64,000 bases of DNA from Rugalucina vietnamica. Lineage: Eukaryota > Mollusca > Bivalvia > Lucinida > Lucinidae. Below are positions 27,515 through 64,000 of this stretch, one piece after another. Under the pieces are notes generated by a model, which saw nothing but the letters and a program-made list of their open reading frames with translations, was not told where the DNA came from and searched no databases. Where the stretch lies: NCBI GenBank assembly GCA_964017185.1, contig OZ024876.1:16256226-16320225 (forward strand). The letters run 5' to 3'. The position numbers and the translations under genes are program-made. How positions within the stretch are numbered: position 1 is the stretch's first letter; every line of letters begins with the position of its first letter.

Positions 27515-27682
27515 ATTAAGGTTTAGATTTAGGGTTTTGGTTATGTTAGGGTTAGGGTAATGGTTAACGTTAATGAAAGGGCTAGGAATGGAGTCAGGTT
27601 TAGGTTAGGGTTAGGGTTAGTTTGGGTTAGGGTTAAGATAAGAGTTAGATTAGGGACAGTGTTAGTTTTGGTTAGGGTTAGA
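27515..27682 (+). repeat. Interstitial TTAGGG-like tract
   Basis: Degenerate GGTTAGGGTTAGGG with many variant units. TTAGGG is the telomere repeat of most animals, molluscs included. Confidence 0.85.
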
Positions 27683-33675: not shown

Positions 33676-33966
33676 ACCCTTATCCTTACCCTATCCCAAA
33701 CCTTACTCTAACGCTAACGCTAAAGTGACCCTAGCCTCAACCTTACCTAACCATAGCCCTAATTTCTAACTCTAACCCTAACACCAACCCTACACCCTAA
33801 CCTAACCTAATCCTAACCTAACCATAACAATAACCTAACCGTAATCTAACCCGTGTTAAATTTAGCCCTAACCTAACCCCAAACATAACCTAGCCCTATC
33901 CTTACCTGACCAACATCCTTAACCTTTACCCTTATTCTAGACCTAACACTAATCCTTAGGGTTAGT
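33672..33966 (-). repeat. Interstitial CCCTAA-like tract
   Basis: About 290 bp of degenerate CCCTAA/CCTAACC units, then a short reversal (CCTTAGGGTTAG). It directly follows the family 3 3' end. Confidence 0.85.
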
Positions 33967-36837: not shown

Positions 36838-37335
36838 GATTTTAACCCTAACCGTAACCTAATTTTAACCCTAACCCTAACTCTATGCCTAACCTAACAT
36901 AACCCTACCCATAGCCCTAACCTTAACCCTTACCTGAACTGAACATTTCCCTAAGCTTACCCTTACCCTAACCCTAACCTTATCCCTAACTCAACCCAAA
37001 ACCTTAGAGTAGGAGCTATAGTTAGGTTTAGCGTGAGGGGCATGAGTTAGTGTTGTTGAGAGGGCTAGAGTTAGGGTCTTAGGTAAATGTTCGTTTTATG
37101 ATTAGGGCGAGAATAAGGCTTATTGTTAGTTGGAGCTTTGGTAATGGTTAGTTAGTGGTAGAATGAGAATTAGGGTATAGGTTAGAGGTAGGGTTACGGC
37201 TATAGTAAGGTTGGTTAGAGCTGGTGTTAGAGTTTGTATTAGTGTACATGTAAGAGCTAGGGATAGATAAAGGGTTGGAGTCATTGTTAGGGTTAAGGTT
37301 AGGGTAACGGTAAGAACAATGGTTAGTATTCTCAA
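36838..37335. repeat. Telomere-like tract that reverses orientation
   Basis: CCCTAA-type units run to about 37005, then TTAGGG-type units run from about 37020 to 37330. The order CCCTAA then TTAGGG is opposite to a head-to-head telomere fusion. Confidence 0.8.
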
Positions 37336-38305: not shown

Positions 38306-38384
38306 ATGGATGCAAAGGGAGAGGGAAAGCGTGTTATTCTAATAGCAATGGACGGAAGTAAACATGCAGATTACGCCTTCAAGT
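38306..38384 (+). CDS. USP gene 1, exon 1
   Basis: From the ATG to the donor GTAAGA at 38385; ends in phase 1 after AFK. Codes strand 1 and the first binding residues. Confidence 0.88.
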
Positions 38385-41132
38385 GTAAGAAAATAGTTTT
38401 CTATTTATATTTTTCTATTTTCTTTTTTGTCCTTCAAATTTGTCATATACATTGTCCTACTAATATTAATTGCGACTAATATGCATTATACGCAATGAAG
38501 TATTGTTTCAATATATGCATATCTTGGCAAATTGCAATTATATGAGCCCAGTCGCAAGCAAACATATTTGAAAGATAAAAATAGAATGTCCATTAATATA
38601 AAACAGACAACGGAATGAAAAATCCAGACAGAACAGCCTTAGAAAGATCAGTAAAGAAATGTTTGAAGGGTCTTTTTTCGATCTTGCAATAACACCACAG
38701 CTGATCGGCGCCTTTGATTTCGCTCTATAAATACTGCAGTCCCTCTCTTACCTAAATCCAAATTTTCTGCTAGCCTAGAATGTTGGTTTTCTACATGTAA
38801 TACGAAAGCCCGAATATATTTTGCAGGGTATGCCGAGAATCTTCATAAAAAGTCGGACGAAGTTTGGTTGACACATTGTGCTGAACAATTTCATCTTCAG
38901 CGTAAGTAATTCATACAAGAACAATGCTTTATTCATTTATTCCGAAATTTTAGTTACAGTACGTACAGACACACATGCTTACAATTTTATACGTAATAAT
39001 ATAGACGAAAGAGCAATGTTTACGGAAATGTATGAAAGGTTTGTTTGTTTGAATTGATGTTTTAAAACGTCCCAGTCAATAGCTATGGTCATGTCGAACG
39101 TCGCCTCCACTTTTCCTAGGCAGGCTCATACCATAGCGTTTAACCAGTAATCAGAGGATCAGCCAGCGGCGTATAAGCTATACCTGGATGCACAGCTCGG
39201 AAGTCCTGACAAGTGTCATGAAAACAGTTGAAAAAACTCTTTGCCCTAATTACGCCGCTTTCGCAATAGCCTAAATCAGTCAAGTTTTGTCCTAGAAAAT
39301 TCCTAAATTACATCTGTTGATCGAATTTAAACATTTAGGACATCGATATATCCTATATGCTTTGTTGAAATGGAGTGCAGTAGTTATGGTAAGAGTTAGT
39401 CTTGTTTAAAATGTTTGTTTGCCTTATTCAATTGAGACAGTATCTCGTATATCATGTTTCAGATTTGAAATAATTTTGTCGTAAACATCTGGCAATATGG
39501 GTGTAATTCAATATTACGTCATCAAAACATAACTTGCAATTTCAAACTACAAAGATTTGTTTTAAAAGTACTTATATGGCACTTCACGAAGCAAAAGTAA
39601 ATCCAGAAAAAATCAAATTGCTTTTCGTGGCCGACTGGTTAAGAGCGCTGCTATTTCACCATTCGATCATCTCACCGCTGTGTCTGGTGTGGGGTCGAGC
39701 CCCACACGGGGCACATGTGAGACAAGCTCAGTTCTACTTGCGGGTGTGCCAGTTTTTTTTTCTCGGGGTTCACCCGTTTTCGTCCCTCCTACTGATTGGT
39801 CCGTCTCATATGAGCTGAAATAAGTTTAAAAGGTACGTAAAACTGAATAAAAATGCTTTTATATAGCTTTTATCAAACAAACTACAAAATAAAAAATACA
39901 TTTCTTAAATGAGTTTTATAGCATAACTCATGGCAAATTGCACGACAAGCGATGACCTTTAACTCGTACCAACTCGTAGTATGCCGTGCTTTCAAATTGT
40001 GAGTGTTTGAACAGGTCTTTTAACCCATTTTTGACGAATAAACTTTCCCATCATTATCATTTGGGTGAGTCCACTGTCATTTTATGGGCTTCAGGAGTGG
40101 TTTTGAATTTGTATTCCATTTTTCGATGAAATTCCTCTAAGGAAACAGAATGGTCCCAGATGGGACGCCGCATTCTGCGGCGTAACATCTGGGGATATGC
40201 TGTTTGCCCATGTCCCATAGAAAGGACGCCAGGCTTATATGAGTAAAGTGACAAATGCTCTTGTGACTCAGTGAAACAGAGATAATGGTTGTAGAAATAT
40301 TTTCATGACCAAATTTTCGACCGGTTGCCGTTTAAAATATGAAAAAAAAATGTTTGCTTCAATTATTTTAGCAACGGATCTCCTGGGTGCCAATGAAACA
40401 TCAGCAGAGGAACTGTACCAAGAGAATATCAAGAAAACAAAAGACACTGCAGCGCGCATCAGAGAAACAGCACAGAAACACCAGGTTATACTTTAATATA
40501 CTTTGGTATGGTAAATAGATTCAGAAAAGAAACAAACCAATATTTGTTTCCATATTTTTGTAACAATCTGTTTTAAGCAAACGGATAATGATCTGTAGAG
40601 ACTTTATATCCAAGTTTTACAATACATTGTGTATTTATATACCCAGCCAATATCACTATGATCTTAGATGCTGGAAGGACGTTTAACTCGACCACAGTTA
40701 TAACAAATATAACAAAAATTATAAAATAGGGAAGTTACAGCTAATATACATGTATATAGAACAACATTTGTTATACAAATAAAACGAAAAGTGGTAAAAT
40801 AGGTATTTATATATATATATTAGCTACAACTTCCCTATTTTACCATTTTTGTTATATTTGTATCACAAATATTGTTTTATATAATATTATATATTTTACA
40901 GATCACTGGCAAGCTGTACCAGTTGCATGGCTACCCGGGTCACTCTATAATACAGGCTGCCGAAGAAAAGAATGCGAACATGATCGTCTGTGGGAGCCGG
41001 GGACAGGGGCTTCTCAGGAGAACGATCCTGGGCAGTATCAGCGACTATATACTACACCACGCACACATGCCGGTTATTGTGTGCAAGCACGAGGATGAAC
41101 AGAAAAGAATGAAACACGGTCAACATCATTAG
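38306..41132 (+). CDS. Universal stress protein, 4 exons, 165 aa
   Basis: USP-domain proteins are small Rossmann-like ATP- or AMP-binding proteins, usually cytoplasmic and dimeric, linked to stress responses; molluscs carry expanded families. Exons: 38306-38384, 38827-38901, 40372-40484, 40902-41132 (79, 75, 113 and 231 nt, total 498). Phases are 1, 1 and 0, and all introns are GT-AG. Strand 1 is RVILIAMDGS (residues 9-18, Asp16 at the nucleotide site). WYAENLHKKSDEV (27-39) is typical of animal USPs. The C-terminal half has HGYPGHSIIQAAEEKNANMI (98-117) and the full binding loop G120-x2-G123-x9-G133-S134, then SDYILHHAHMPVIVCKHE. No signal peptide or membrane segment. Start chosen as the first ATG in frame after an A-rich leader. 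A weak donor (GTTATA) closes exon 3. The length is normal for a single-domain USP. Neighbour: a paralogue 11 kb downstream with the same exon structure. Confidence 0.9.
38697..38793 (+). mobile_element. Family 1 MITE fragment in USP gene 1 intron 1
   Basis: CAGCTGATCGGCGCCTTTGA and the following AAATCCAAATTTTCTGCTAGCC match the right half of family 1. It stops about 30 bp before exon 2. Confidence 0.5.
38827..38901 (+). CDS. USP gene 1, exon 2
   Basis: Acceptor TATTTTGCAG, donor GTAAGT at 38902. Completes Trp27 and codes YAENLHKKSDEVWLTHCAEQ. Same length (75 nt) and phases as exon 2 of gene 2. Confidence 0.88.
39626..39835 (+). mobile_element. tRNA-derived SINE in USP gene 1 intron 2
   Basis: GTGGCCGACTGGTTAAGAGC is a good pol III A box of the Leu/Ser tRNA type. 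GGGTCGAGCCCCA, 59 bp or so later, is a B box. A body with CTCGGGGTTCACCCG follows and the unit fades near AAAAGG. The lack of a clean acceptor stem argues for a SINE rather than a tRNA gene. The 3' border is uncertain. Confidence 0.6.
40024..40245 (+). mobile_element. Family 4 MITE in USP gene 1 intron 2
   Basis: From ACCCATTTTTGACGAATAAA to GCCAGGCTTATATGAGTAAA, with the palindrome AGATGGGACGCCGCATTCTG. It ends about 130 bp before exon 3. Confidence 0.75.
40372..40484 (+). CDS. USP gene 1, exon 3
   Basis: Acceptor AATTATTTTAG; exon ends CAC CAG before GTTATA. Codes TDLLGANETSAEELYQENIK and a helix to residue 89. 113 nt, as in gene 2. Confidence 0.85.
40701..40863. repeat. Intronic hairpin in USP gene 1 intron 3
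   Basis: AACTTCCCTATTTTACCATTTTTGTTATATTTGT is mirrored by ACAAATATAACAAAAATTATAAAATAGGGAAGTT at the left, with AT-rich sequence between. It lies just before exon 4. A small MITE or a fold relevant to splicing. Confidence 0.65.
40902..41132 (+). CDS. USP gene 1, exon 4
   Basis: Acceptor ATATTTTACAG. Codes residues 90-165 with the entire glycine-rich nucleotide loop and the C-terminal strand, then a His/Lys-rich tail ending in TAG. Confidence 0.9.
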   Translation: MTGKLYQLHGYPGHSIIQAAEEKNANMIVCGSRGQGLLRRTILGSISDYILHHAHMPVIVCKHEDEQKRMKHGQHH

Positions 41133-45148: not shown

Positions 45149-46874
45149 TATAGCCCCGCTTTGAAAAAGTGGGGGCTATACTGGATTCACCCTGTCCTTC
45201 CGTAGTTCCGTTATTCTGTTATTCCGTCCTTCTGTCCTTCCGTCCTTCCGACATTTTTGTTTCCATTCATTATCTTGAGAATGGCTCGACAGAATCTGAC
45301 CAAATTTTGTATGCACATCAACATTTACAAGATCTAGCTTGGGATTGTTACCCGTCATTTTTCACAAAATTTTGACGGAGTTATGGCCCTTGATTGATGT
45401 CAGAATTTCGTTTCCGCTCAATATCTTGAGAACGAATTGACAGAATCTGACCAAATTTTGTATGCACATCAACATTGACAAGATCTAGCTTGGGATTGTT
45501 ACCCATCGTTTATCGCAAAATTTTGACGGAGTTATGGCCCTTGATTGACGTCAGAATTTCGTTTCCGCTCAATATCTTGAGAATAAATTGACAGAATCGG
45601 ACCAAATTTTGTATGCATATCATCATTGACAAGATCTTGCTTGGGATTGTTACCCGTCATTTTTCGCAAAATTTTGACGGAGTTATGGCCCTTGGTTGAC
45701 GTCAGAATTTCGTTTCCGCTCAATATCTTGAGAACGAATTGACAGAATCGGACCAAATTTTGTATGCACATCATCATTGACAGGACCTAGCTTGGGATTG
45801 TTACCCGTCATTTTTCGCAAAATTTTGACAGAGTTATGGCCCTTGATTAACGTCAGAATTTCGTTTCCGCTCAATATCTTGAGAACGCATTGACAGAATC
45901 CGACCAAATTTTGTATGCACATCAACATTGACATGATCTAGCTTGGGATTATTACCTGTTATTATTTGCAAAATTTTGACGGAGTTACGGCCCTTGATTG
46001 ACATCAGAATTTCGTTTCCGCTCAATATCTTGAGAACAAATTGACAGAATCCGACCAAATTTTGTATGCACATCAACATTGACAAGATCTAGCTTGGGAT
46101 TGTTGCCCGTCATTTTTCGCAAAATTTTGACGGAGTTATGGCCCTTGATTGACGTCAGAATTTCGTTTCCGCTCAATATCTTGAGAACAAATTGACAGAA
46201 TCGGACCAAATTTTGTATGCACATCATCATTGACAAGATCTAGCTTGGGATTGTTACCCGTCATTTTTCGCAAAATTTTGACGGAGTTACGGCCCTTAAT
46301 TGACGTCAGAATTTCGTTTCCGCTCAATATCTTGAGAACGCATTGACAGAATCCGACCAAATTTTGTATGCACATCAACATTGACAAGATCTAGCTTGGG
46401 ATTGTAATACCCTTCAGTTTTTGTTAAATTTTGACAGAGTTATGGCCCTTAATTAACGTCAGAATTTCGTTTCCGCTCAATATCTTGAGAACGAATTGAC
46501 AGAATCCAACCAAATTTTGTATGCACATCAACATTGACAAGATCTGGCTTGGGATTGTTACCCGTCATTTTTCACAAAATTTTGATGGAGTTAACAGCCC
46601 TTGATTGACTTGAGAATTTTGTTTCTGCTCAATATCTTCAGAACGAATTGACAGAATCCGTCTAAATTTTGTATGCACATCATCATTGACAAGATCTAGT
46701 TTTGGATTATTACCGTCATTTTTCGCAAAATTTTGACAGAAAACGAATTGACAAAATCAGACCAAATTTTGTATGAGCATCAATATTGATGAGATCTAGC
46801 TTGTGATAGCCTGTGATAGTTACCTGTCATTGTTTTTTTTCACCCTGCAAAAAAAGCTGAGAAGCGGGGCTATA
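45149..46874. mobile_element. Hairpin-capped element filled with a 151-bp tandem repeat
   Basis: It begins TATAGCCCCGCTTTGAAAAA, itself a hairpin with GTGGGGGCTATA, and ends AGAAGCGGGGCTATA, the inverse of the start. A pyrimidine-rich CCGTCCTTCTGTCC tract follows the left cap. From about 45255 to 46790 a 151-bp unit repeats about ten times, each with TCAATATCTTGAGAA, CCAAATTTTGTATGCACATC and TTTTGACGGAGTTATGGCCC. Overlapping 83-codon minus-strand ORFs recur at exactly 151-bp steps because of the repeat. Confidence 0.85.
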
Positions 46875-52130: not shown

Positions 52131-52212
52131 ATGTCGATTTTGGACTCAGGAAGGAAACGGATAGTCATGATAGCGATGGACGGGAGTAAACATTCCGAGT
52201 ATGCTTTCAAGT
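52131..52212 (+). CDS. USP gene 2, exon 1
   Basis: ATG after an A-rich leader; donor GTAAGT at 52213; phase 1 after AFK. Confidence 0.82.
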
Positions 52213-55167
52213 GTAAGTATTGGGGTCTACCTTTTATTTATAATTTGTATAAATTTTGTCAATGATACCTCGTGATAAGGTGTTCAATGTTATGTAAAGG
52301 TTATATGATACATGCTCGTTTATAGTCTACAGTTCGATATTGTACGATATAAGAATGCTACAAATGTACATGTCCTAATGAGTAATGTGTTGTCCTGGGG
52401 CTCACTGCTTGCCATCACCTGGGTTTTAGAAATAGAATGACTTTTAGATTGACCTACCTATAGTGCAATGCGCCATACTCATGATGCAATATTTACATTC
52501 TTAGATATGAAAGGGTAATTCTTGATGTTTTTCATGTCCCGATGAAAATTGAGAAGTCAAGTTTGTGTGCTTATTTTGGTGTGACATCAGTCTCGTATCG
52601 CCACATGAAGTTAAGCGCGAAATCCGTCAAATTAGATTATCCAGAAAATTAGCAATGGTATTGTAAAATAAAAGACAAATAATTGATTGAAAATATAAAA
52701 TGTAATTACGTGTATGAATTGAAATTCAGATTTTTAGTTTTAATTTTGGATGATGAAAAACATAAGCAACTTAATGTATCCGATAAGTTCTTCAGGCTTC
52801 ACAGACACTAAACCTAAAAATCTGAATTTAAATCCTTAAAATACATTAAGGAACAAGCTGTAGGATAAAAGGAAAATGTTTACTCGGGCCAGGGACTTGT
52901 ATACAGAAAAAAAAAACACACAACAAAATCTCATTGTTATGAGGCAAATGAAAAGCATGTAATACTTTTCACACAAGCACACAAGGCCAGTCGACTGGTA
53001 ATTTTGCTCATAGCTCATTGTAAAAGAGAAGCATTTACATGTTGCTTTTTTCTTAAACCACAGGGTATGCTGAGCACGTACGACACAAAAATGACGAGGT
53101 GGTGCTGGCACATTGTATGGAGGAGTTTCAGGTCCAACGTAAGTAACACGTTTAGAAATTCTCATATAAAACTACTTATTACGAAAATACGCACAAGAAA
53201 AAAAAATAAATAAAAAAATAAAAAAAAAGCTTTAAACACCCATACTCGTCGATCTATGTTAAAAGGTTGCATATTTCACGAACATGTTATACTGCTAAAA
53301 ATTTGAATACATCATTCGTTTAAAGGAATATATAGCTGCTCTTGTTCAAAATTTAAAGTTGGCAGCGCAAATTGATGCAACATCACACGACATGGGAATG
53401 AATGGACGCCTAGTCTATTAGGGAGTTTTGTGCGTCGCTGTAGATATTATTTTACAAAATCGATATTGCCTCACAGTATGTAGTTGCCCTATTGACGAGG
53501 CTAACCAACGGACTCACATTTTGTCACGTATCGTGTGATGTTGCATCAGTCTGTGCTGTAGAAATTTGGGCATCACGGGTATGCACCTGGTGAGTGGAAA
53601 TATGAGCTGCGACGAGAGAAAACCGGTCTTCGGGGTTTCCGACCAGGTCTGATATAAACCGACCTGTACAGTCACAGAAGCAGGCTAGAAGCTTGAATTT
53701 TCGGAGTTAAGAAGAAGATAAATTTTACTATCCGTGTAGCAAAAACAAAGGCGATGATCAGTTACTGCGAAGCTGATCTGCGCCTTTTGTTTTCGCATAG
53801 GCAAAAATCCGGTTTTCTGTCACAAACAAACGCCATAGGACCTTTATTGCGGCTTTCACACTAGAGCACGATCTGTTACGAATGTCACGATTGACAAATC
53901 GCAGCTAATCGGGACATTTTGCCAAAATTTGACGTTCTGATAAGTGTCGTTGCGTTTTGATACGATCTGTTGCGATCTGATACGATAGGGTGGCGATCGG
54001 TCAAAATCTGGTGACACGATATTGGTCCCGGATAGATACGATTAGTTGCGATCTGATAAGATTATTACGATTAAACCCCGATTCTAATGCGCTCTGACAC
54101 GATTATCACGATACTTGACCGCGATTTGATACGAACTGATACGCTTAGATGCGTTCTGGTACCAGTTTCAAGAACTGATACGACATGTTGCGATAGGTGA
54201 CGATTGTTGGCTTGATTTTTGGTGCCTGATTGAGGTCACGATTGTGTCACGATGAGACCGCGAATGGTATATTTACTTAGAAAACAAACATATACTTCAT
54301 TACGTTTTTAATCTCTGAAGACGAAACAACATTGGTGATGGAGGAGCAGAGACTGACGAGAATGCGACATTTGCATTATTAATGCCTTATCCTTCCCCTT
54401 TCAATCCCTGTCCCTGCTGCCATTTCCTGGCATCCTTCAGATTTCGAATTAATACTGAAAAAGGACCGTATTGATATTAACTTCTCTGTTGTTGATCAAA
54501 GAATAAAAGTTATCTTGCCCGATGTTTTTAATGTATTGATAATTCGTAACAGATCGTAAGCATCCGTGGCAAAAACGTGGCTTGTCGTGTCTCATCGCAT
54601 TTACTCGTATCAGATCGTATCCTATCGGGAGTCATTCGCATCGCCTCGTAGTTAATCGGGCCAGGCATTTTTCTCGAATCGTAACAGACCGTAACAATTC
54701 GTAGGAGATCGCAACTCATCTCAACAGATCGCGGTGTTTTGGTCGGTCCCGATCATCGCGATTTAGGAGCAAGATGAGATACGATTTGTTGCGATTTGTT
54801 ACGAGGTCATACGATCTGATGCGATGGCCACGATAGTCCCGCCAATCGTGGTAATCGTGGCAAAATTTTTGGCAGCCAAAAATTTTTCCACGATTAGCCC
54901 GATTATCACGATTGATTTCAAGATGTGATGCGATCTGATAAGATTGGATACGATAGTCCCGATTGGTCCATGATGAAGACCACGATACCAATCGTGGTCG
55001 AATCGTGATAAGTGTGAAAGCTGCATATACAACTGAAATCAATTGCTTTTACAGCAACGGACTTCCTAGGAGCCAATGAAATTATGATTGACGAACTGTT
55101 TGAAAAACATTCGACCAAAAACAAGGCAACACAAAAACAAATTGAAGACATGGCGAATAAATATCAG
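52131..55167 (+). CDS. Universal stress protein paralogue, exons 1-3 only
   Basis: Exons at 52131-52212, 53064-53138 and 55055-55167 (82, 75 and 113 nt) give residues 1-90. Intron positions and phases (1, 1, 0) and the lengths of exons 2 and 3 equal those of USP gene 1. Strand 1 is RIVMIAMDGS (Asp17), followed by WYAEHVRHKNDEVVLAHCME and TDFLGANEIMIDELFEKHST, each aligning with gene 1. The frame is intact, with no stop or shift. The fourth exon, with the glycine-rich nucleotide loop, is not present between 55168 and the satellite at 56899, nor in the satellite. Either it lies beyond the window, making intron 3 more than 8.8 kb and filled with satellite, or it has been lost and the gene is a pseudogene. 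A longer frame in the first exon region (from 51914) is another frame and not used. Confidence 0.8.
52213..53063. repeat. USP gene 2 intron 1, one inverted repeat
   Basis: AAATTCAGATTTTTAGTTTT (52723) and, inverted, AAACCTAAAAATCTGAATTT (about 52811) form a hairpin around 52720-52835. Otherwise plain AT-rich sequence. Confidence 0.5.
53064..53138 (+). CDS. USP gene 2, exon 2
   Basis: Acceptor CTTAAACCACAG, donor GTAAGT at 53139. Completes Trp28. Confidence 0.82.
53370..53555. repeat. Inverted repeat in USP gene 2 intron 2
   Basis: TTGATGCAACATCACACGAC at the left and CGTGTGATGTTGCATCAGTC at the right form a 20-bp stem around a loop of about 145 bp. Probably a small MITE. Confidence 0.55.
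53604..53825 (-). mobile_element. Family 1 MITE in USP gene 2 intron 2
   Basis: From GAGCTGCGACGAGAGAAAAC to CCGGTTTTCTGTCA. A short deletion in the hairpin centre removes the CTTCGC copy on one side. Confidence 0.75.
53849..55024. mobile_element. TIR element built of CGAT-type repeats
   Basis: GCGGCTTTCACACTAG at the left and AAGTGTGAAAGCTGC at the right are inverse. The interior is dominated by GATCTG(A/T)(T)ACGAT-like words: forward at 53860-54240 and 54780-55000, inverted at about 54550-54730. There are dozens of CGAT/ATCG tetranucleotides, far above what its AT content predicts. It ends 30 bp before exon 3. Confidence 0.65.
55055..55167 (+). CDS. USP gene 2, exon 3
   Basis: Acceptor TTGCTTTTACAG, donor GTACAA at 55168; ends in phase 0 after KYQ. 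Confidence 0.82.
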
Positions 55168-55254
55168 GTACAATGTAGGTCAGAAATAATCATTTTTAAA
55201 CGTCCCTGAGTACAAGATTGACTATGGAATTCAATTTTTATTTAATTAGCTATG

Positions 55255-55395
55255 GAAAGGTACAAGTAGGCAAAGATCAGGAAAAGGCGCAATCAGAAAG
55301 AGATTCCCACTCCAAAAACCGAGGTGGGAAAAAACCAAACTAACAATCAGGCACTTATACCATGAAACATATCGTAAGCCGAATGAGCAGCTATT
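55255..55395 (-). repeat. Family 3 repeat, partial
   Basis: GAAAGGTACAAGTAGGCAAA to CGTAAGCCGAATGAGCAGC. Truncated at the far end. Confidence 0.75.
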
Positions 55396-55404
55396 TTATA
55401 AGGA

Positions 55405-55545
55405 TTTATCCAAAACATAGATTGTGGACACATGTTAGAACTGCCTCGCAATATATTGGAAGAAAATAAGAAAAATGTATACCATTTTATACCCTAATTC
55501 TACTGTAGAAAATTGGGTGTTGGGCAATAAAACTATATAGATATG
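55405..55545 (-). mobile_element. Family 2 MITE, degenerate
   Basis: AAAACATAGATTGTGGACAC and the following GTTAGAACTGCCTCG are recognisable; the palindrome's second arm is lost. Confidence 0.5.
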
Positions 55546-55696
55546 TAATCCTGGTGTAATTTAGAGCCATCATTAGCCTGTAGAGGCGATTTGGCAGGGA
55601 GCTTGTCTGATTCGTTCGAAAGCATCCTTAATATGCTAGAATTATTATTTTTAAAGTTTCTTGTTAACATTGAAGGATAACATTTTATAAATTTCA

Positions 55697-55954
55697 GGGC
55701 CCAGAATTACAATCCTCCCTTAAAGTTAAGGAAGACCTTAGTTAAGGTGACGAATTTCAGCATCCAAAAAGATGCATCCAAAACATTCTAAAATCAAATT
55801 TATCAGTTTTATTAAGTAAATGACATTTTATTTCACACACCTGTATAATTTTGTAAAAATAGTTATTGATTTTAACGGTAAAATATCGAGTCAAAATTTG
55901 TCACCTTAACTAAGGTCTTCCTTAACTTTAAGGGAGGATTGTAATTCTGGGCCC
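55697..55954. mobile_element. 258-bp MITE with about 56-bp TIRs
   Basis: GGGCCCAGAATTACAATCCT and the next 35 bp, through TAAGGAAGACCTTAGTTAAG, are exactly mirrored at the right end. The centre is AT-rich with no ORF. Confidence 0.8.
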
Positions 55955-56046
55955 ACTGTTTGTTACAACTTAACTCAATATGGGCACTAAGTAAGATATT
56001 GGTGCTTATAGTTACCAATTCGGTAAATCTCTCTAAATAAAATATA

Positions 56047-56275
56047 AGCCACCACATGGGAAAACCAACAATCTGCCTAGGCGAAAACAAAGGCGCATAT
56101 CAGCTTCGCAGTAACTGCGAAGCTGATCAGCGCCTTTGTTTTCAATACTCGGATAGTACAATTCCTCCTCTACTTAACTCCAAAATTTCAAGCTTCTAGC
56201 TCTTTTCTGTGACTGTACAGGTCGGTTTGTGTCGGACCTGATCGGAAACCAAATTGTTGGTTTTCCACGAGGGTG
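56047..56275 (+). mobile_element. Family 1 MITE, diverged-end sub-type
   Basis: Ends CCACATGGGAAAACCAACAA and TTGTTGGTTTTCCACGAGGG, with the hairpin centre GCAGTAACTGC. Same sub-type as 24727-24953. Confidence 0.8.
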
Positions 56276-56898
56276 AAGTTAGCAGTACCAGCAGTACTGC
56301 AGTAATACTGCGGCATTAGCTCAGCAGCACCAGCAGTATTACACATCCGGACCAAAGTAACGCCCGTATTGTTTTTTTAGATTACTGGTGTATTGATCTT
56401 TTTGAACGATTTATACTGGTGTATTGATCTTTTTGAACGATTTAATAACACACTTATATGTTTATTGTTTGTTTTTCTAGCATAACGGCTGATTCAGCAA
56501 TTTTTCAGTCATGTCTGGACAGTGCCACCACTCTCTGATATGGTATGTTCATGTGTATTCTTAAGCGCCACGAGCCACTAGCTTCTCGTCTACACTGTTC
56601 CAAAATGATACTATTGGTTTTACCACATTCACATGTACCATTCCCCATATTTAAAGAATTCACATTGCTTATGTCTCACCGGTTCTATTTAAATGCAATG
56701 CATGCATGTTACATGCACCGTAGTGCAAAGCCTGAGTAGCGTTGTCCTCTAAGTGTCCGGCGCTGTCTTCGAAGTGGCCGTCCTCGATTTTTAAAACAGA
56801 GAAATTCAAATACAGATACATATTGAATGCAACTGGAGAACATTTCTTTCACAAACTTTTGATACAATTAAAGTCTAAATAAGGGACACAACTATAGG
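56276..56898. other. No gene seen before the satellite
   Basis: CAGCAGTA-type words cluster at 56280-56340, and a 30-bp unit (TACTGGTGTATTGATCTTTT...) is duplicated at 56386-56445. No USP exon 4. Confidence 0.5.
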
Positions 56899-59800
56899 GT
56901 GCAATGAGGTCCAAACCGGTTTTTGACCCCCGATGTTACCACCCCAGAGGCTTGAGTTTCTGACCAGACCCTGTTGTGATTGTTGGTATGGTAACACTCT
57001 TTCAGCTGCGTGGGGTCGGTATACCGGGATAACTCTTGTTCTCGAGAAAAAGTGGTATACTTATGTTATACAAGCTATAATAGCGAAAATACATGCTTTT
57101 CAGCAGCAACATGTCACGCAAGTCATGGGCTTGAGTTTCTGGTCTCACCCTTTTTATAATATCGAGTGATCCCCAGTGGATGGAACCAGATAGTTGGCTA
57201 TACCGGGATAACTCTTGTTCTCGAGAATTGGGGGGTCAAAAAGGGGGGGGGGGTGCAATGAGGTCCAAACCGGTTTTTGACCCCCGATGTTACCACCCCA
57301 GAGGCTTGAGTTTCTGACCAGACCCTGTTGTGATTGTTGGTATGGTAACACTCTTTCAGCTGCGTGGGGTCGGTATACCGGGATAACTCTTGTTCTCGAG
57401 AAAAAGTGGTATACCTATGTTATACAAGCTATAATAGCGAAAATACATGCTTTTCAGCAGCAACATGTCACGCAAGTCATGGGCTTGAGTTTCTGGTCTC
57501 ACCCTTTTTATAATATCGAGTGATCCCCAGTGGATGGAACCAGATAGTTGGCTATACCGGGATAACTCTTGTTCTCGAGAATTGGGGGGTCAAAAAGGGG
57601 GGGGGTGCAATGAGGTCCAAACCAGTTTTTGACCCCCGATGTTACCACCCCAGAGGCTTGAGTTTCTGACCAGACCCTGTTGTGATTGTTGGTATGGTAA
57701 CACTCTTTCAGCTGCGTGGGGTCGGTATACCGGGATAACTCTTGTTCTCTAGAAAAAGTGGTATACCTATATTATACAAGCTAAAATAGCGAAAATACAT
57801 GCTTTTCAGCAGCAACATGTCACGCAAGTCATGGGCTTGAGTTTCTGGTCTCACCCTTTTTATAATATCGAGTGATCCCCAGTGGATGGAACCAGATAGT
57901 TGGCTATACCGGGATAACTCTTGTTCTCGAGAATTGGGGGGTCAAAATAGGGGGGGGGGGTGCAATGAGGTCCAAACCGGTTTTTGACCCCCGATGTTAC
58001 CACCCCAGAGGCTTGAGTTTCTGACCGGACCCTGTTGTGATTGTTGGTATGGTAACACTCTTTCAGCTGCGTGGGGTCGGTATACCGGGATAACTCTTGT
58101 TCTCGAGAAAAAGTGGTATACCTATGTTATAAAAGCTAAAATAGCGAAAATACATGCTTTTCAGCAGCAACATGTTACGCAAGTCATGGGCTTGAGTTTC
58201 TGGTCTCACCCTTTTTATAATATCGAGTGATCCCCAGTGGATGGAACCAGATAGTTGGCCATACCGGGATAACTCTTGTTCTCGAGAATTGGGGGGTCAA
58301 AATAGGGGGGGGGGTGCAATGAGGTCCAAACCGGTTTTTGACCCCCGATGTTACCACCCCAGAGGCTTGAGTTTCTGACCAGACCCTGTTGTGATTGTTG
58401 GTATGGTAACACTCTTTCAGCTGCATGGGGTCGGTATACCGGGATAACTCTTGTTCTCGAGAAAAAGTGGTATACCTATATTATACAAGCTAAAATAGCG
58501 AAAATACATGCTTTTCAGCAGCAACATGTCACGCAAGTCATGGGCTTGAGTTTCTGGTCTCACCCTTTTTATAATATCAAGTGATCCCCAGTGGATGGAA
58601 CACGATAGTTGGCTATACCGGGATAACTCTTGATCTCGAGAATTGGGGGGGGTCAAAATAGGGGGGGGGTGCAATGAGGTCCAAACCGGTTTTTGACCCC
58701 CGATGTTACCACCCCAGATGCTTGAGTTTCTGACCAGACCCTGTTGTGATTGTTGGTATGGTAACACTCTTTCAGCTGCGTGGGGTCGGTATACCGGGAT
58801 AACTCTTGTTCTCGAGAAAAAGTGGTATACCTATGTTATATAAGCTAAAATAGCGAAAATACATGCTTTTCAGCAGCAACATGTTACGCAAGTCATGGGC
58901 TTGAGTTTCTGGTCTCACCCTTTTTATAATATCGAGTGATCCCCAGTGGATGGAACCAGATAGTTGGCTATACCGGGATAACTCTTGTTCTCGAGAATTG
59001 GGGGGTCAAAATAGGGGGGGGTGCAATGAGGTCCAAACCGGTTTTTGACCCCAGATGTTACCACCCCAGAGGCTTGAGTTTCTGACCAGACCCTGTTGTG
59101 ATTGTTGGTATGGTAACACTCTTTCAGCTGCGTGGGGTAGGTATACCGGGATAACTCTTGTTCTCGAGAAAAAGTGGTATACCTATATTATACAAGCTAA
59201 AATAGCGAAAATACATGCTTTTCAGCAGCAACATGTCACGCAAGTCATGGGCTTGAGTTTCTGGTCTCACCCTTTTTATAATATCGAGTGATCCCCAGTG
59301 GATGGAACCAGATAGTTGGCTATACCGGGATAACTCATGTTCTCGAGAATTGGGGGGGTCAAAATAGGGGGGGGGGGGCAATGAGGTCCAAACCGGTTTT
59401 TGACCCCCGATGTTACCACCCCAGAGGCTTGAGTTTCTGACCAGACCCTGTTGTGATTGTTGGTATGGTAACACTCTTTCAGCTGCGTGGGGTCGGTATA
59501 CCGGGATAACTCTTGTTCTCGAGAAAAAGTGGTATACCTATGTTATACAAGCTAAAATAGCGAAAATACATGCTTTTCAGCAGCAACATGTCACGCAAGT
59601 CATGGGCTTGAGTTTCTGGTCTCACCCTTTTTATAATATCGAGTGATCCCCAGTGGATGGAACCAGATAGTTGGCTATACCGGGATAACTCTTGTTCTCG
59701 AGAATCGGGGGGTCAAAATAGGGGGTGGGGTGCAATGAGGTCCAAACCGGTTTTTGACCCCGATGTTACCACCCCAGAGGCTTGAGTTTCTGACCAGACC

Positions 59801-62800
59801 CTGTTGTGATTGTTGGTATGGTAACACTCTTTCAGCTGCGTGGGGTCGGTATACCGGGATAACTCTTGTTCTCGAGAAAAAGTGGTATACCTATATTATA
59901 CAAGCTAAAATAGCGAAAATACATGCTTTTCAGCAGCAACATGTCACGCAAGTCATGGGCTTGAGTTTCTGGTCTCACCCTTTTTATAATATCGAGTGAT
60001 CCCCAGTGGATGGAACCAGATAGTTGGCTATACCGGGATAACTCTTGTTCTCGAGAATTGGGGGGTCAAAATAGGGGGGGGTGCAATGAGGTCCAAACCG
60101 GTTTTTGACCCCCGATGTTACCACCCCAGAGGCTTGAGTTTCTGACCAGACCCTGTTGTGATTGTTGGTATGGTAACACTCTTTCAGCTGCGTGGGGTCG
60201 GTATACCGGGATAACTCTTGTTCTCGAGAAAAAGTGGTATACCTATGTTATACAAGCTATAATAGCGAAAATACATGCTTTTCAGCAGCAACATGTCACG
60301 CAAGTCATGGGCTTGAGTTTCTGGTCTCACCCTTTTTATAATATCGAGTGATCCCCAGTGGATGGAACCAGATAGTTGGCTATACCGGGATAACTCTTGT
60401 TCTCGAGAATTGGGGGGTCAAAAGGGGGGGGTGCAATGAGGTCCAAACCAGTTTTTGACCCCCGATGTTACCACCCCAGAGGCTTGAGTTTCTGACCAGA
60501 CCCTGTTGTGATTGTTGGTATGGTAACACTCTTTCAGCTGCGTGGGGTCGGTATACCGGGATAACTCTTGTTCTCGAGAAAAAGTGGTATACCTATGTTA
60601 TAAAAGCTAAAATAGCGAAAATACATGCTTTTCAGCAGCAACATGTTACGCAAGTCATGGGCTTGAGTTTCTGGTCTCACCCTTTTTATAATATCGAGTG
60701 ATCCCCAGTGGATGGAACCAGATAGTTGGCCATACCGGGATAACTCTTGTTCTCGAGAATTGGGGGGTCAAAATAGGGGGGGGGTGCAATGAGGTCCAAA
60801 CCGGTTTTTGACCCCCGATGTTACCACCCCAGAGGCTTGAGTTTCTGACCAGACCCTGTTGTGATTGTTGGTATGGTAACACTCTTTCAGCTGCGTGGGG
60901 TCGGTATACCGGGATAACTCTTGTTCTCGAGAAAAAGTGGTATACCTATGTTATACAAGCTAAAATAACGAAAATACATGCTTTTCAGCAGCAACATGTT
61001 ACGCAAGTCATGGGCTTGAGTTTCTGGTCTCACCCTTTTTATAATATCAAGTGATCCCCAGTGGATGGAACACGATAGTTGGCTATACCGGGATAACTCT
61101 TGTTCTCGAGAATTGGGGGGTCAAAATAGGGGGGGGGGTGCAATGAGGTCCAAACCGGTTTTTGACCCCCGATGTTACCACCCCAGAGGCTTGAGTTTCT
61201 GACCAGACCCTGTTGTGATTGTTGGTATGGTAACACTCTTTCAGCTGCGTGGGGTCGGTATACCGGGATAACTCTTGTTCTCGAGAAAAAGTGGTATACC
61301 TATGTTATATAAGCTAAAATAGCGAAAATACATGCTTTTCAGCAGCAACATGTTACGCAAGTCATGGGCTTGAGTTTCTGGTCTCACCCTTTTTATAATA
61401 TCGAGTGATCCCCAGTGGATCGAACCAGATAGTTGGCTATACCGGGATAACTCTTGTTCTCGAGAATTGGGGGGTCAAAATAGGGGGGGGGGTGCAATGA
61501 GGTCCAAACCGGTTTTTGACCCCAGATGTTACCACCCCAGAGGCTTGAGTTTCTGACCAGACCCTGTTGTGATTGTTGGTATGGTAACACTCTTTCAGCT
61601 GCGTGGGGTAGGTATACCGGGATAACTCTTGTTCTCGAGAAAAAGTGGTATACCTATATTATACAAGCTAAAATAGCGAAAATACATGCTTTTCAGCAGC
61701 AACATGTCACGCAAGTCATGGGCTTGAGTTTCTGGTCTCACCCTTTTTATAATATCGAGTGATCCCCAGTGGATGGAACCAGATAGTTGGCTATACCGGG
61801 ATAACTCATGTTCTCGAGAATTGGGGGGGTCAAAATAGGGGGGGGGGGGCAATGAGGTCCAAACCGGTTTTTGACCCCCGATGTTACCACCCCAGAGGCT
61901 TGAGTTTCTGACCAGACCCTGTTGTGATTGTTGGTATGGTAACACTCTTTCAGCTGCGTGGGGTCGGTATACCGGGATAACTCTTGTTCTCGAGAAAAAG
62001 TGGTATACCTATGTTATACAAGCTAAAATAGCGAAAATACATGCTTTTCAGCAGCAACATGTCACGCAAGTCATGGGCTTGAGTTTCTGGTCTCACCCTT
62101 TTTATAATATCGAGTGATCCCCAGTGGATGGAACCAGATAGTTGGCTATACCGGGATAACTCTTGTTCTCGAGAATCGGGGGGTCAAAATAGGGGGTGGG
62201 GTGCAATGAGGTCCAAACCGGTTTTTGACCCCGATGTTACCACCCCAGAGGCTTGAGTTTCTGACCAGACCCTGTTGTGATTGTTGGTATGGTAACACTC
62301 TTTCAGCTGCGTGGGGTCGGTATACCGGGATAACTCTTGTTCTCGAGAAAAAGTGGTATACCTATATTATACAAGCTAAAATAGCGAAAATACATGCTTT
62401 TCAGCAGCAACATGTCACGCAAGTCATGGGCTTGAGTTTCTGGTCTCACCCTTTTTATAATATCGAGTGATCCCCAGTGGATGGAACCAGATAGTTGGCT
62501 ATACCGGGATAACTCTTGTTCTCGAGAATTGGGGGGTCAAAATAGGGGGGGGTGCAATGAGGTCCAAACCGGTTTTTGACCCCCGATGTTACCACCCCAG
62601 AGGCTTGAGTTTCTGACCAGACCCTGTTGTGATTGTTGGTATGGTAACACTCTTTCAGCTGCGTGGGGTCGGTATACCGGGATAACTCTTGTTCTCGAGA
62701 AAAAGTGGTATACCTATGTTATACAAGCTATAATAGCGAAAATACATGCTTTTCAGCAGCAACATGTCACGCAAGTCATGGGCTTGAGTTTCTGGTCTCA

Positions 62801-64000
62801 CCCTTTTTATAATATCGAGTGATCCCCAGTGGATGGAACCAGATAGTTGGCTATACCGGGATAACTCTTGTTCTCGAGAATTGGGGGGTCAAAAGGGGGG
62901 GGGTGCAATGAGGTCCAAACCAGTTTTTGACCCCCGATGTTACCACCCCAGAGGCTTGAGTTTCTGACCAGACCCTGTTGTGATTGTTGGTATGGTAACA
63001 CTCTTTCAGCTGCGTGGGGTCGGTATACCGGGATAACTCTTGTTCTCGAGAAAAAGTGGTATACCTATATTATACAAGCTAAAATAGCGAAAATACATGC
63101 TTTTCAGCAGCAACATGTCACGCAAGTCATGGGCTTGAGTTTCTGGTCTCACCCTTTTTATAATATCGAGTGATCCCCAGTGGATGGAACCAGATAGTTG
63201 GCTATACCGGGATAACTCTTGTTCTCGAGAATTGGGGGGTCAAAATGGAGGGGGGGGTGCAATGAGGTCCAAACCGGTTTTTGACCCCCGATGTTACCAC
63301 CCCAGAGGCTTGAGTTTCTGACCAGACCCTGTTGTGATTGTTGGTATGGTAACACTCTTTCAGCTGCGTGGGGTCGGTATACCGGGATAACTCTTGTTCT
63401 CGAGAAAAAGTGGTATACCTATGTTATACAAGCTATAATAGCGAAAATACATGCTTTTCAGCAGCAACATGTCACGCAAGTCATGGGCTTGAGTTTCTGG
63501 TCTCACCCTTTTTATAATATCGAGTGATCCCCAGTGGATGGAACCAGATAGTTGGCTATACCGGGATAACTCTTGTTCTCGAGAATTGGGGGGTCAAAAG
63601 GGGGGGGTGCAATGAGGTCCAAACCAGTTTTTGACCCCCGATGTTACCACCCCAGAGGCTTGAGTTTCTGACCAGACCCTGTTGTGATTGTTGGTATGGT
63701 AACACTCTTTCAGCTGCGTGGGGTCGGTATACCGGGATAACTCTTGTTCTCGAGAAAAAGTGGTATACCTATATTATACAAGCTAAAATAGCGAAAATAC
63801 ATGCTTTTCAGCAGCAACATGTCACGCAAGTCATGGGCTTGAGTTTCTGGTCTCACCCTTTTTATAATATCGAGTGATCCCCAGTGGATGGAACCAGATA
63901 GTTGGCTATACCGGGATAACTCTTGTTCTCGAGAATTGGGGGGTCAAAATGGAGGGGGGGGTGCAATGAGGTCCAAACCGGTTTTTGACCCCCGATGTTA
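56899..64000. repeat. 353-bp satellite, about 20 copies, runs off the window
   Basis: Successive units start with GGTGCAATGAGGTCCAAACC at steps of 350-355 bp. Length differences come mostly from a G-run of 7 to 13 just before that phrase. Copies are nearly identical. Each unit contains GGCTTGAGTTTCTG and TACCGGGATAACTCTTGTTC twice, about 178 bp apart, so the monomer is an old dimer. Diagnostic variants recur about 2,471 bp apart (59140/61611, 58260/60731, 59706/62177), and others about 705 bp apart (62890/63595, 63241/63945). A 78-codon plus-strand frame and a 65-codon minus-strand frame are open in most units, which is expected when near-identical copies spread. Confidence 0.95.

Follow-up and report, generated by a model that had tools for sequence, protein, structure and literature searches.

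The stretch of Rugalucina vietnamica DNA analysed here, called the window, comprises 64,000 nucleotides of contig OZ024876.1 (C8:16256226-16320225) and contains the first three exons of USP-B, a four-exon stress gene. An earlier note on this DNA had compared USP-B with its complete paralogue USP-A and proposed that the fourth exon of USP-B was displaced or replaced by an array of a 353-bp satellite. We find that the missing exon 4 is intact, about 41,000 bases downstream of exon 3, and that the satellite in between is carried by a non-autonomous foldback DNA transposon, whose insertion into intron 3 is established by its termini, a target-site duplication, an empty site and exon 4 itself. We hold the whole account with good confidence: an intact USP-B, insertion of a Mutator-type foldback element, later growth of its left arm, and a gene that most likely still works. 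The assembly searched has 1,089,854,562 bases in 47 contigs; the region analysed was the window plus fifteen 10-kb stretches (214 kb joined, with no N), and coordinates above 64000 carry on the count of the window (extended coordinates).

Exon 1 of USP-B (52131-52212, + strand, 82 nt, phase 1) runs from the ATG to a donor GTAAGT and has 83% DNA identity over 94 nt to a neighbouring paralogue, C, with the ATG and the donor in register. Exons 2 (53064-53138, 75 nt) and 3 (55055-55167, 113 nt, donor GTACAA) follow on the same strand. The earlier note was right that USP-A and USP-B agree in where their introns lie, in phase and in the length of exon 2 (75 nt) and of exon 3 (113 nt), and that exons 1-3 of USP-B have no disabling mutation: the introns of both genes have GT/AG ends, and their exons contain no stop or frameshift. 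It was also right that USP-B has no exon 4 ahead of the satellite, none being found from 55167 up to 56897, where the first satellite copy begins. The search past 64000 for an exon coding the ATP loop, which it had proposed, was made as a translated search with the A and B proteins and found an exon of 252 nt, including the stop, at extended positions 96233-96484 (G000:C8:16352458-16352709, + strand, outside the window). This exon is intact and in frame, behind an acceptor ...ccattcag (ttttcaaccattcag). Intron 3 (+ strand) accordingly extends from 55168 to extended position 96232, a length of 41,065 bp of which the first 8.8 kb (55168-64000) lie in the window; the window edge at 64000 is not the end of the array, which continues to 95573.

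The ATP-binding motif of Usp proteins is G-2X-G-9X-G(S/T). In USP-B, GSRGQGLFRRTILGS, which from that motif we take to be the ATP-binding loop, has the form G-2X-G-9X-GS and lies entirely in exon 4; exons 1-3 are without the motif. With exon 4 included, USP-B matches the Pfam Usp profile (PF00582) at 97.9 bits, the cut-off being 24, with residues 10-152 aligned to positions 3-141 of 141; USP-A also matches this profile. A tblastn search with the A and B proteins (E up to 10) gave no further USP exon from 55186 to 96229, and exon 4 of USP-B resembles its counterpart in C more closely than the one in A. An origin of exon 4 in another gene is ruled out, because no second set of exons 1-3 lies in between. 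Deletion or replacement is ruled out by the exon at 96233-96484, so the suggestions that exon 4 had been replaced, or the gene cut off, fall. The other alternative offered, that satellite had expanded within intron 3 of a gene still alive, agrees with an exon 4 that keeps its frame, its AG acceptor and the ATP loop, and with the low ratio of nonsynonymous to synonymous differences reported below.

The transposon occupies 39,554 bp, from 56267 through the window edge at 64000 to extended position 95820. It is bordered by a perfect 9-bp target-site duplication, TGGTTTTCC, at 56258-56266 (+ strand) on the left and at extended 95821-95829 on the right. Its ends, of the ACGAGGG type on the left and the ATGAATG type on the other side, read TGGTTTTCC followed by ACGAGGGTGAAGTTAGC at the left and, on the other strand, GGAAAACCA followed by ATGAATGTGAAGTTAGC at the right. 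Each terminal inverted repeat (TIR) begins with a leader as its flanking domain: 630 bp on the left (56267-56896, + strand) and a shorter inverted copy of 247 bp on the right (extended 95574-95820), the two array flanks being inverted copies of each other and the right one having an internal deletion. Between the leaders, the array at 56897-95573 gave 106 monomer hits of more than 300 bp with a single change of orientation, at about 87161-87163. The left-arm array of 353-bp monomers (+ strand; 56897-64000 in the window, continuing to 87161) accounts for 85 of these, and the inverted arm (− strand; extended 87162-95573) for the other 21, plus partial ones. Because each inverted repeat is a short leader followed by tandem 353-bp monomers, the body of the element resembles a satellite that flips orientation; long inverted repeats with tandem repeats are present both in the USP-B copy and in a copy on C9.

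The element sits inside a miniature inverted-repeat transposable element (MITE; window 56036-56266, about 240 bp) that is very abundant, tens of pieces in the 214 kb matching it. These provide the empty site: 13 of 105 MITE pieces elsewhere in the 214 kb cross the junction of the joined flanks, at 73-91% identity, when at least 20 bases are required to the left of the junction and at least 15 to the right. Removing the element and one copy of the duplication leaves an intron 3 of 1,502 bp. A foldback-type transposon thus inserted into intron 3 of USP-B, within the MITE, making the 9-bp duplication, and with the element in place an intron of about 1.5 kb now has 41 kb. Judging by the 9-bp duplication and the structure of the ends, mobilisation was most likely in trans, by a MULE-type (Mutator-like element) transposase. 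Elsewhere in intron 3, at window 55697-55954, there is an inverted repeat that is 74.7% identical over 265 bp to its own reverse complement, with outer arms that look closer by eye; it is possibly a second MITE.

The relationships among the monomers suggest that the left arm grew in place after insertion, partly through the duplication of whole blocks, each about 25 monomers long. This arm has 84 full monomers of 27 types with a mean divergence of 1.2%, and all 84 have their nearest neighbour in their own arm, in a comparison with the monomers of three other copies only. Their order has a period of 25 monomers, at which shift 69% are identical and divergence is 0.25%. The right arm has 19 monomers with a mean divergence of 6.7%; set against the same three copies, 9 of them are closest to a monomer that lies outside this arm. 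Satellite expansion in intron 3, as the earlier note had it, therefore stands in part: the array is not a bare expansion, being a complete 39.6-kb foldback transposon, and there was later expansion inside the left arm. With up to two mismatches allowed, a genome-wide search for the pattern of the fold-back junction gave a single match, in the USP-B copy. A copy on C13 (C13:12338820-12378865), 40.0 kb long and with a leader 99% identical over 208 bases, must therefore be without this exact junction. Taken together, the unique junction and the in-place growth of the left arm indicate that the present size of the element is partly local, which lowers the odds that it transposed as a whole unit. 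The two arms align with each other at about 94% over 3.1-kb stretches in the best five alignments, so that a transcript could, speculatively, form long double-stranded RNA.

Codon conservation suggests that USP-B is a live gene, with purifying selection on exons 1-3 and on exon 4. Between B and C, the proportions of nonsynonymous and synonymous sites that differ (pN/pS) are 0.077/0.632 for exons 1-3 and 0.159/0.636 for exon 4, the corresponding ratios of substitution rates (dN/dS) are about 0.06 and about 0.13, and the bootstrap range of the B-C pN/pS ratio over all codons is 0.125-0.252. Nonsynonymous differences from A number 103.0 for B and 110.3 for C; B is therefore not accelerated. Upstream, B and C have a stretch of 33 bases in common about 50-90 bases before the ATG (82% identity, E 1.7e-4); each gene also carries a TATA-like site within 500 bases. 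Together with the intact splice sites, the codon conservation makes it most likely that the 41-kb intron is spliced out and that the gene still works. The alternative is that USP-B is dying: the insertion would stop productive splicing, transcripts would end in intron 3 or retain it, no ATP loop would be made, and the event would be too young for the exons to have decayed. Read-through into intron 3 would indeed add 13 residues before a stop, the small divergence between left-arm blocks makes the latest growth recent, and a young event predicts intact exons under either reading. We nevertheless regard a dying gene as unlikely, since splice sites, reading frame and ATP loop are all intact over four exons. 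The mean divergence of the right arm hints that the insertion is not brand-new, although that divergence could predate it, and in the sense orientation the array has no AATAAA where mononucleotide shuffles have 8.6, a weak point for an array of one homogeneous monomer; the whole of intron 3 has three.

Long homogeneous arrays are hard to assemble, and exon 4 and the array might have been wrongly joined. We consider such an artefact very improbable, because the two sides of the entire array agree in the target duplication and the split MITE, exon 4 is closer to that of C, the 214 kb contain no N, and the block copies are not all identical.

The element that we place in USP-B belongs to a family found across the genome. 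A terminus pattern searched genome-wide with up to two mismatches gave 78 forward and 72 reverse matches (150), compared with 2 and 1 for the reversed pattern used as a control. Termini were given our own type labels on 100 of the 150 matches, all 100 listed being used, and comprised 39 of ATG type, 38 of ACG type and 23 of a third type, mostly ATGTATG; the third type forms no convergent pair among the 100 and may be another family. Among these listed termini at least 29 pairs of convergent neighbours lie less than 80 kb apart (8.7-59.8 kb, median 31.7 kb), and every one of the 29 joins an ACG-type to an ATG-type end. They include 18 of the 19 pairs that were read at both ends, and perfect 9-bp duplications at the same boundary occur in 14 of those 19 compared with 0 of 324 mismatched pairs. 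The leader, too, recurs elsewhere in convergent pairs (40 of 75 candidates scored), and more than two dozen further sites in the genome have elements with the same ends as the one in USP-B. That a plain satellite simply expanded in the intron, with inverted leaders that are incidental, has a negligible chance of being right: it would explain the 353-bp tandem arrays and the local expansion of the left arm, but it is refuted by the target duplication and the empty site and is at odds with fixed termini at many loci and convergent pairs of opposite type. As a separate observation on the listed termini, the subtypes ACGAGGG/ATGAATG, ACGACGG/ATGAATG and ACGGCGG/ATGGATG pair with each other.

The C9 copy (8.7 kb), read whole, consists of a leader, 9 monomer stretches (7 of them full), a flip, 13 monomers and a leader. 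It has four stop-to-stop frames of at least 110 amino acids, three in the satellite and one, of 127, in the leader. In the copy at C7:8249658, the 10 of 48.7 kb that were read are satellite with a flip. In that at C7:58320407, the first 14.6 of 42.8 kb contain 6.4 kb of satellite and then what by eye appears to be a long terminal repeat (LTR) retrotransposon. The other copies of the family are presumably filled with satellite as well. The apparent LTR retrotransposon, nested in the element, begins at G000:C7:58327071 (L046 from 2071) and has gag/pol-like frames by eye; the same start sequence, again by eye, borders a copy ending near C7:62698319.

By structure, the family most likely belongs with the Mutator/Foldback elements Tm1 and Tetris. 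Tm1 of root-knot nematodes is a Mutator/Foldback element with 9-bp target duplications, composite inverted repeats and, in one copy, a Phantom-type MULE transposase (PMC3169594). The USP-B element is like it in its 9-bp duplications, variable number of tandem units and mostly non-autonomous copies, and in having two different 7-bp motifs, generally one per end outside the inverted repeat (here ACGAGGG and ATGAATG). It is unlike Tm1 in that Tm1 units are mostly 14 bp, with 1-9 per TIR, whereas here they are 353 bp, with about 85 and 23, and in that no counterpart of the transposase carried by one Tm1 copy turned up. Tetris of Drosophila virilis, placed in Mutator by its authors, has 8-10-bp target duplications and no conserved open reading frames, and it seeds a satellite (PMC4079207). 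Its TIR has an external flanking domain and then tandem repeats of about 220 bp, and the same plan of leader plus repeats is found here. Unlike Tetris, the element here has arms of up to about 31 kb with nothing between them, and it lies in an intron of a gene. The middle domain that separates the arms of Tetris is absent, the arms meeting at 87161/87162 in USP-B and directly in copy L085 as well, and the element is for that reason not filed as Tetris itself. As for the host intron, the Drosophila Y genes kl-3 and kl-5 also have introns consisting of satellite and are transcribed through them (PMC6508621). Those introns, however, are Y-linked megabase simple repeats handled by a special germline programme, whereas here 39 kb of 353-bp monomers are borne by a transposon in a small stress gene.

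A Helitron or Helentron as carrier of the satellite is refuted by the target duplications, and we give it practically no weight. Helitrons are not known to make a target duplication or to have long terminal inverted repeats, and the long inverted repeats at both ends of the USP-B element, with its 9-bp duplication, are a misfit. The suggestion comes from oysters: satellites of Crassostrea gigas are often Helitron-carried, with monomers that, as here, ride on mobile elements and are scattered over chromosomes (PMC8268682). The oyster arrays are short and central, in contrast to a TIR transposon whose inverted repeats are themselves the satellite.

Several observations weigh against our account of a Mutator-type foldback insertion in a working gene. 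The genome has 59 MULE-domain hits, all of them outside the pairs and more than 60 kb away from each of the 100 termini listed (of 150), FLYWCH domains not having been searched for, so that the superfamily assignment is made from structure only. Perfect target duplications are absent from 5 of the 19 pairs read. By eye, the duplications at C7:35119904 and C5:55656986 appear altered by small indels, the first four bases at C7:62682399 are common to both ends before an apparent later insertion, the left end at C1:33017633 is degraded, and no target duplication is seen at either end of C5:44010061. Moreover, 19 of the 77 listed ACG- and ATG-type termini are without a convergent neighbour less than 80 kb away among those listed. 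The length of the array depends on the assembly and could be wrong, even in 214 kb without N. Finally, synonymous divergence between B and C is near saturation (dS 1.4), and as an average it takes in the time that preceded the insertion, such that recent relaxation could be missed.

A bolder reading, which we advance only tentatively and think doubtful, is that this is a recently mobile family of giant foldback elements that cuts and pastes satellite arrays, each tens of kilobases long, as whole units, seeding finished satellite across chromosomes and into working genes. In the USP-B pre-mRNA, the shorter arm (8.7 kb) could also pair with the longer, and the long double-stranded RNA might draw the splice sites close to each other or feed small-RNA pathways, making the intron regulatory. 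If elements of 30-60 kb do move whole, composite-TIR arms can far exceed those of Tm1 and Tetris.

There are precedents for foldback elements, for satellites born of them and for genes whose transcription passes through satellite introns (PMC4079207, PMC6508621). Our searches of open-licence papers, mostly at the level of listings and the opening lines of abstracts, did not turn up a foldback family with members of 9-60 kb that, where read, are almost wholly satellite, one of them in a four-exon stress gene. The family ties satellite DNA directly to transposons with countable ends, and through empty sites both the origin of scattered satellite arrays and their tolerance by genes become testable locus by locus.

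USP-A, the complete four-exon paralogue used as the reference, lies at 38306-41132 (+ strand); its exons are at 38306-38384, 38827-38901, 40372-40484 and 40902-41132 (79, 75, 113 and 231 nt). At least seven USP genes, USP-A among them, are clustered on the + strand (G000:C8, extended 38306-178260, A to G by exon 4); each of A-D could be assembled as four exons that match in phase, and E-G only in part. Among A-D, the protein closest to USP-B is C, at 83% identity over 163 amino acids (A 61%, D 52%), and C is also the next gene downstream, beginning at 109920. The lengths of intron 3 are 417 bp (A), 41,065 bp (B), 5,886 bp (C) and 2,236 bp (D). The 353-bp monomer was not found elsewhere in the 214-kb region, so intron 3 of C is free of it. 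USP-B with its 41-kb satellite intron, beside a closest paralogue with a 5.9-kb intron and no satellite, thus amounts to a natural experiment. Genome-wide, 30 of 32 USP matches are on C7 and C8.

Searches of the window against Rfam and for tRNAs found nothing. Between USP-A and USP-B there is a second tandem array, at window 45255-46737, with 9.8 copies of a 151-bp unit at 91% matches; the 353-bp monomer has no match to it. Interstitial telomere-like TTAGGG/CCTAAC tracts occur at window 27529-27681, 33690-33852 and 36843-36990.

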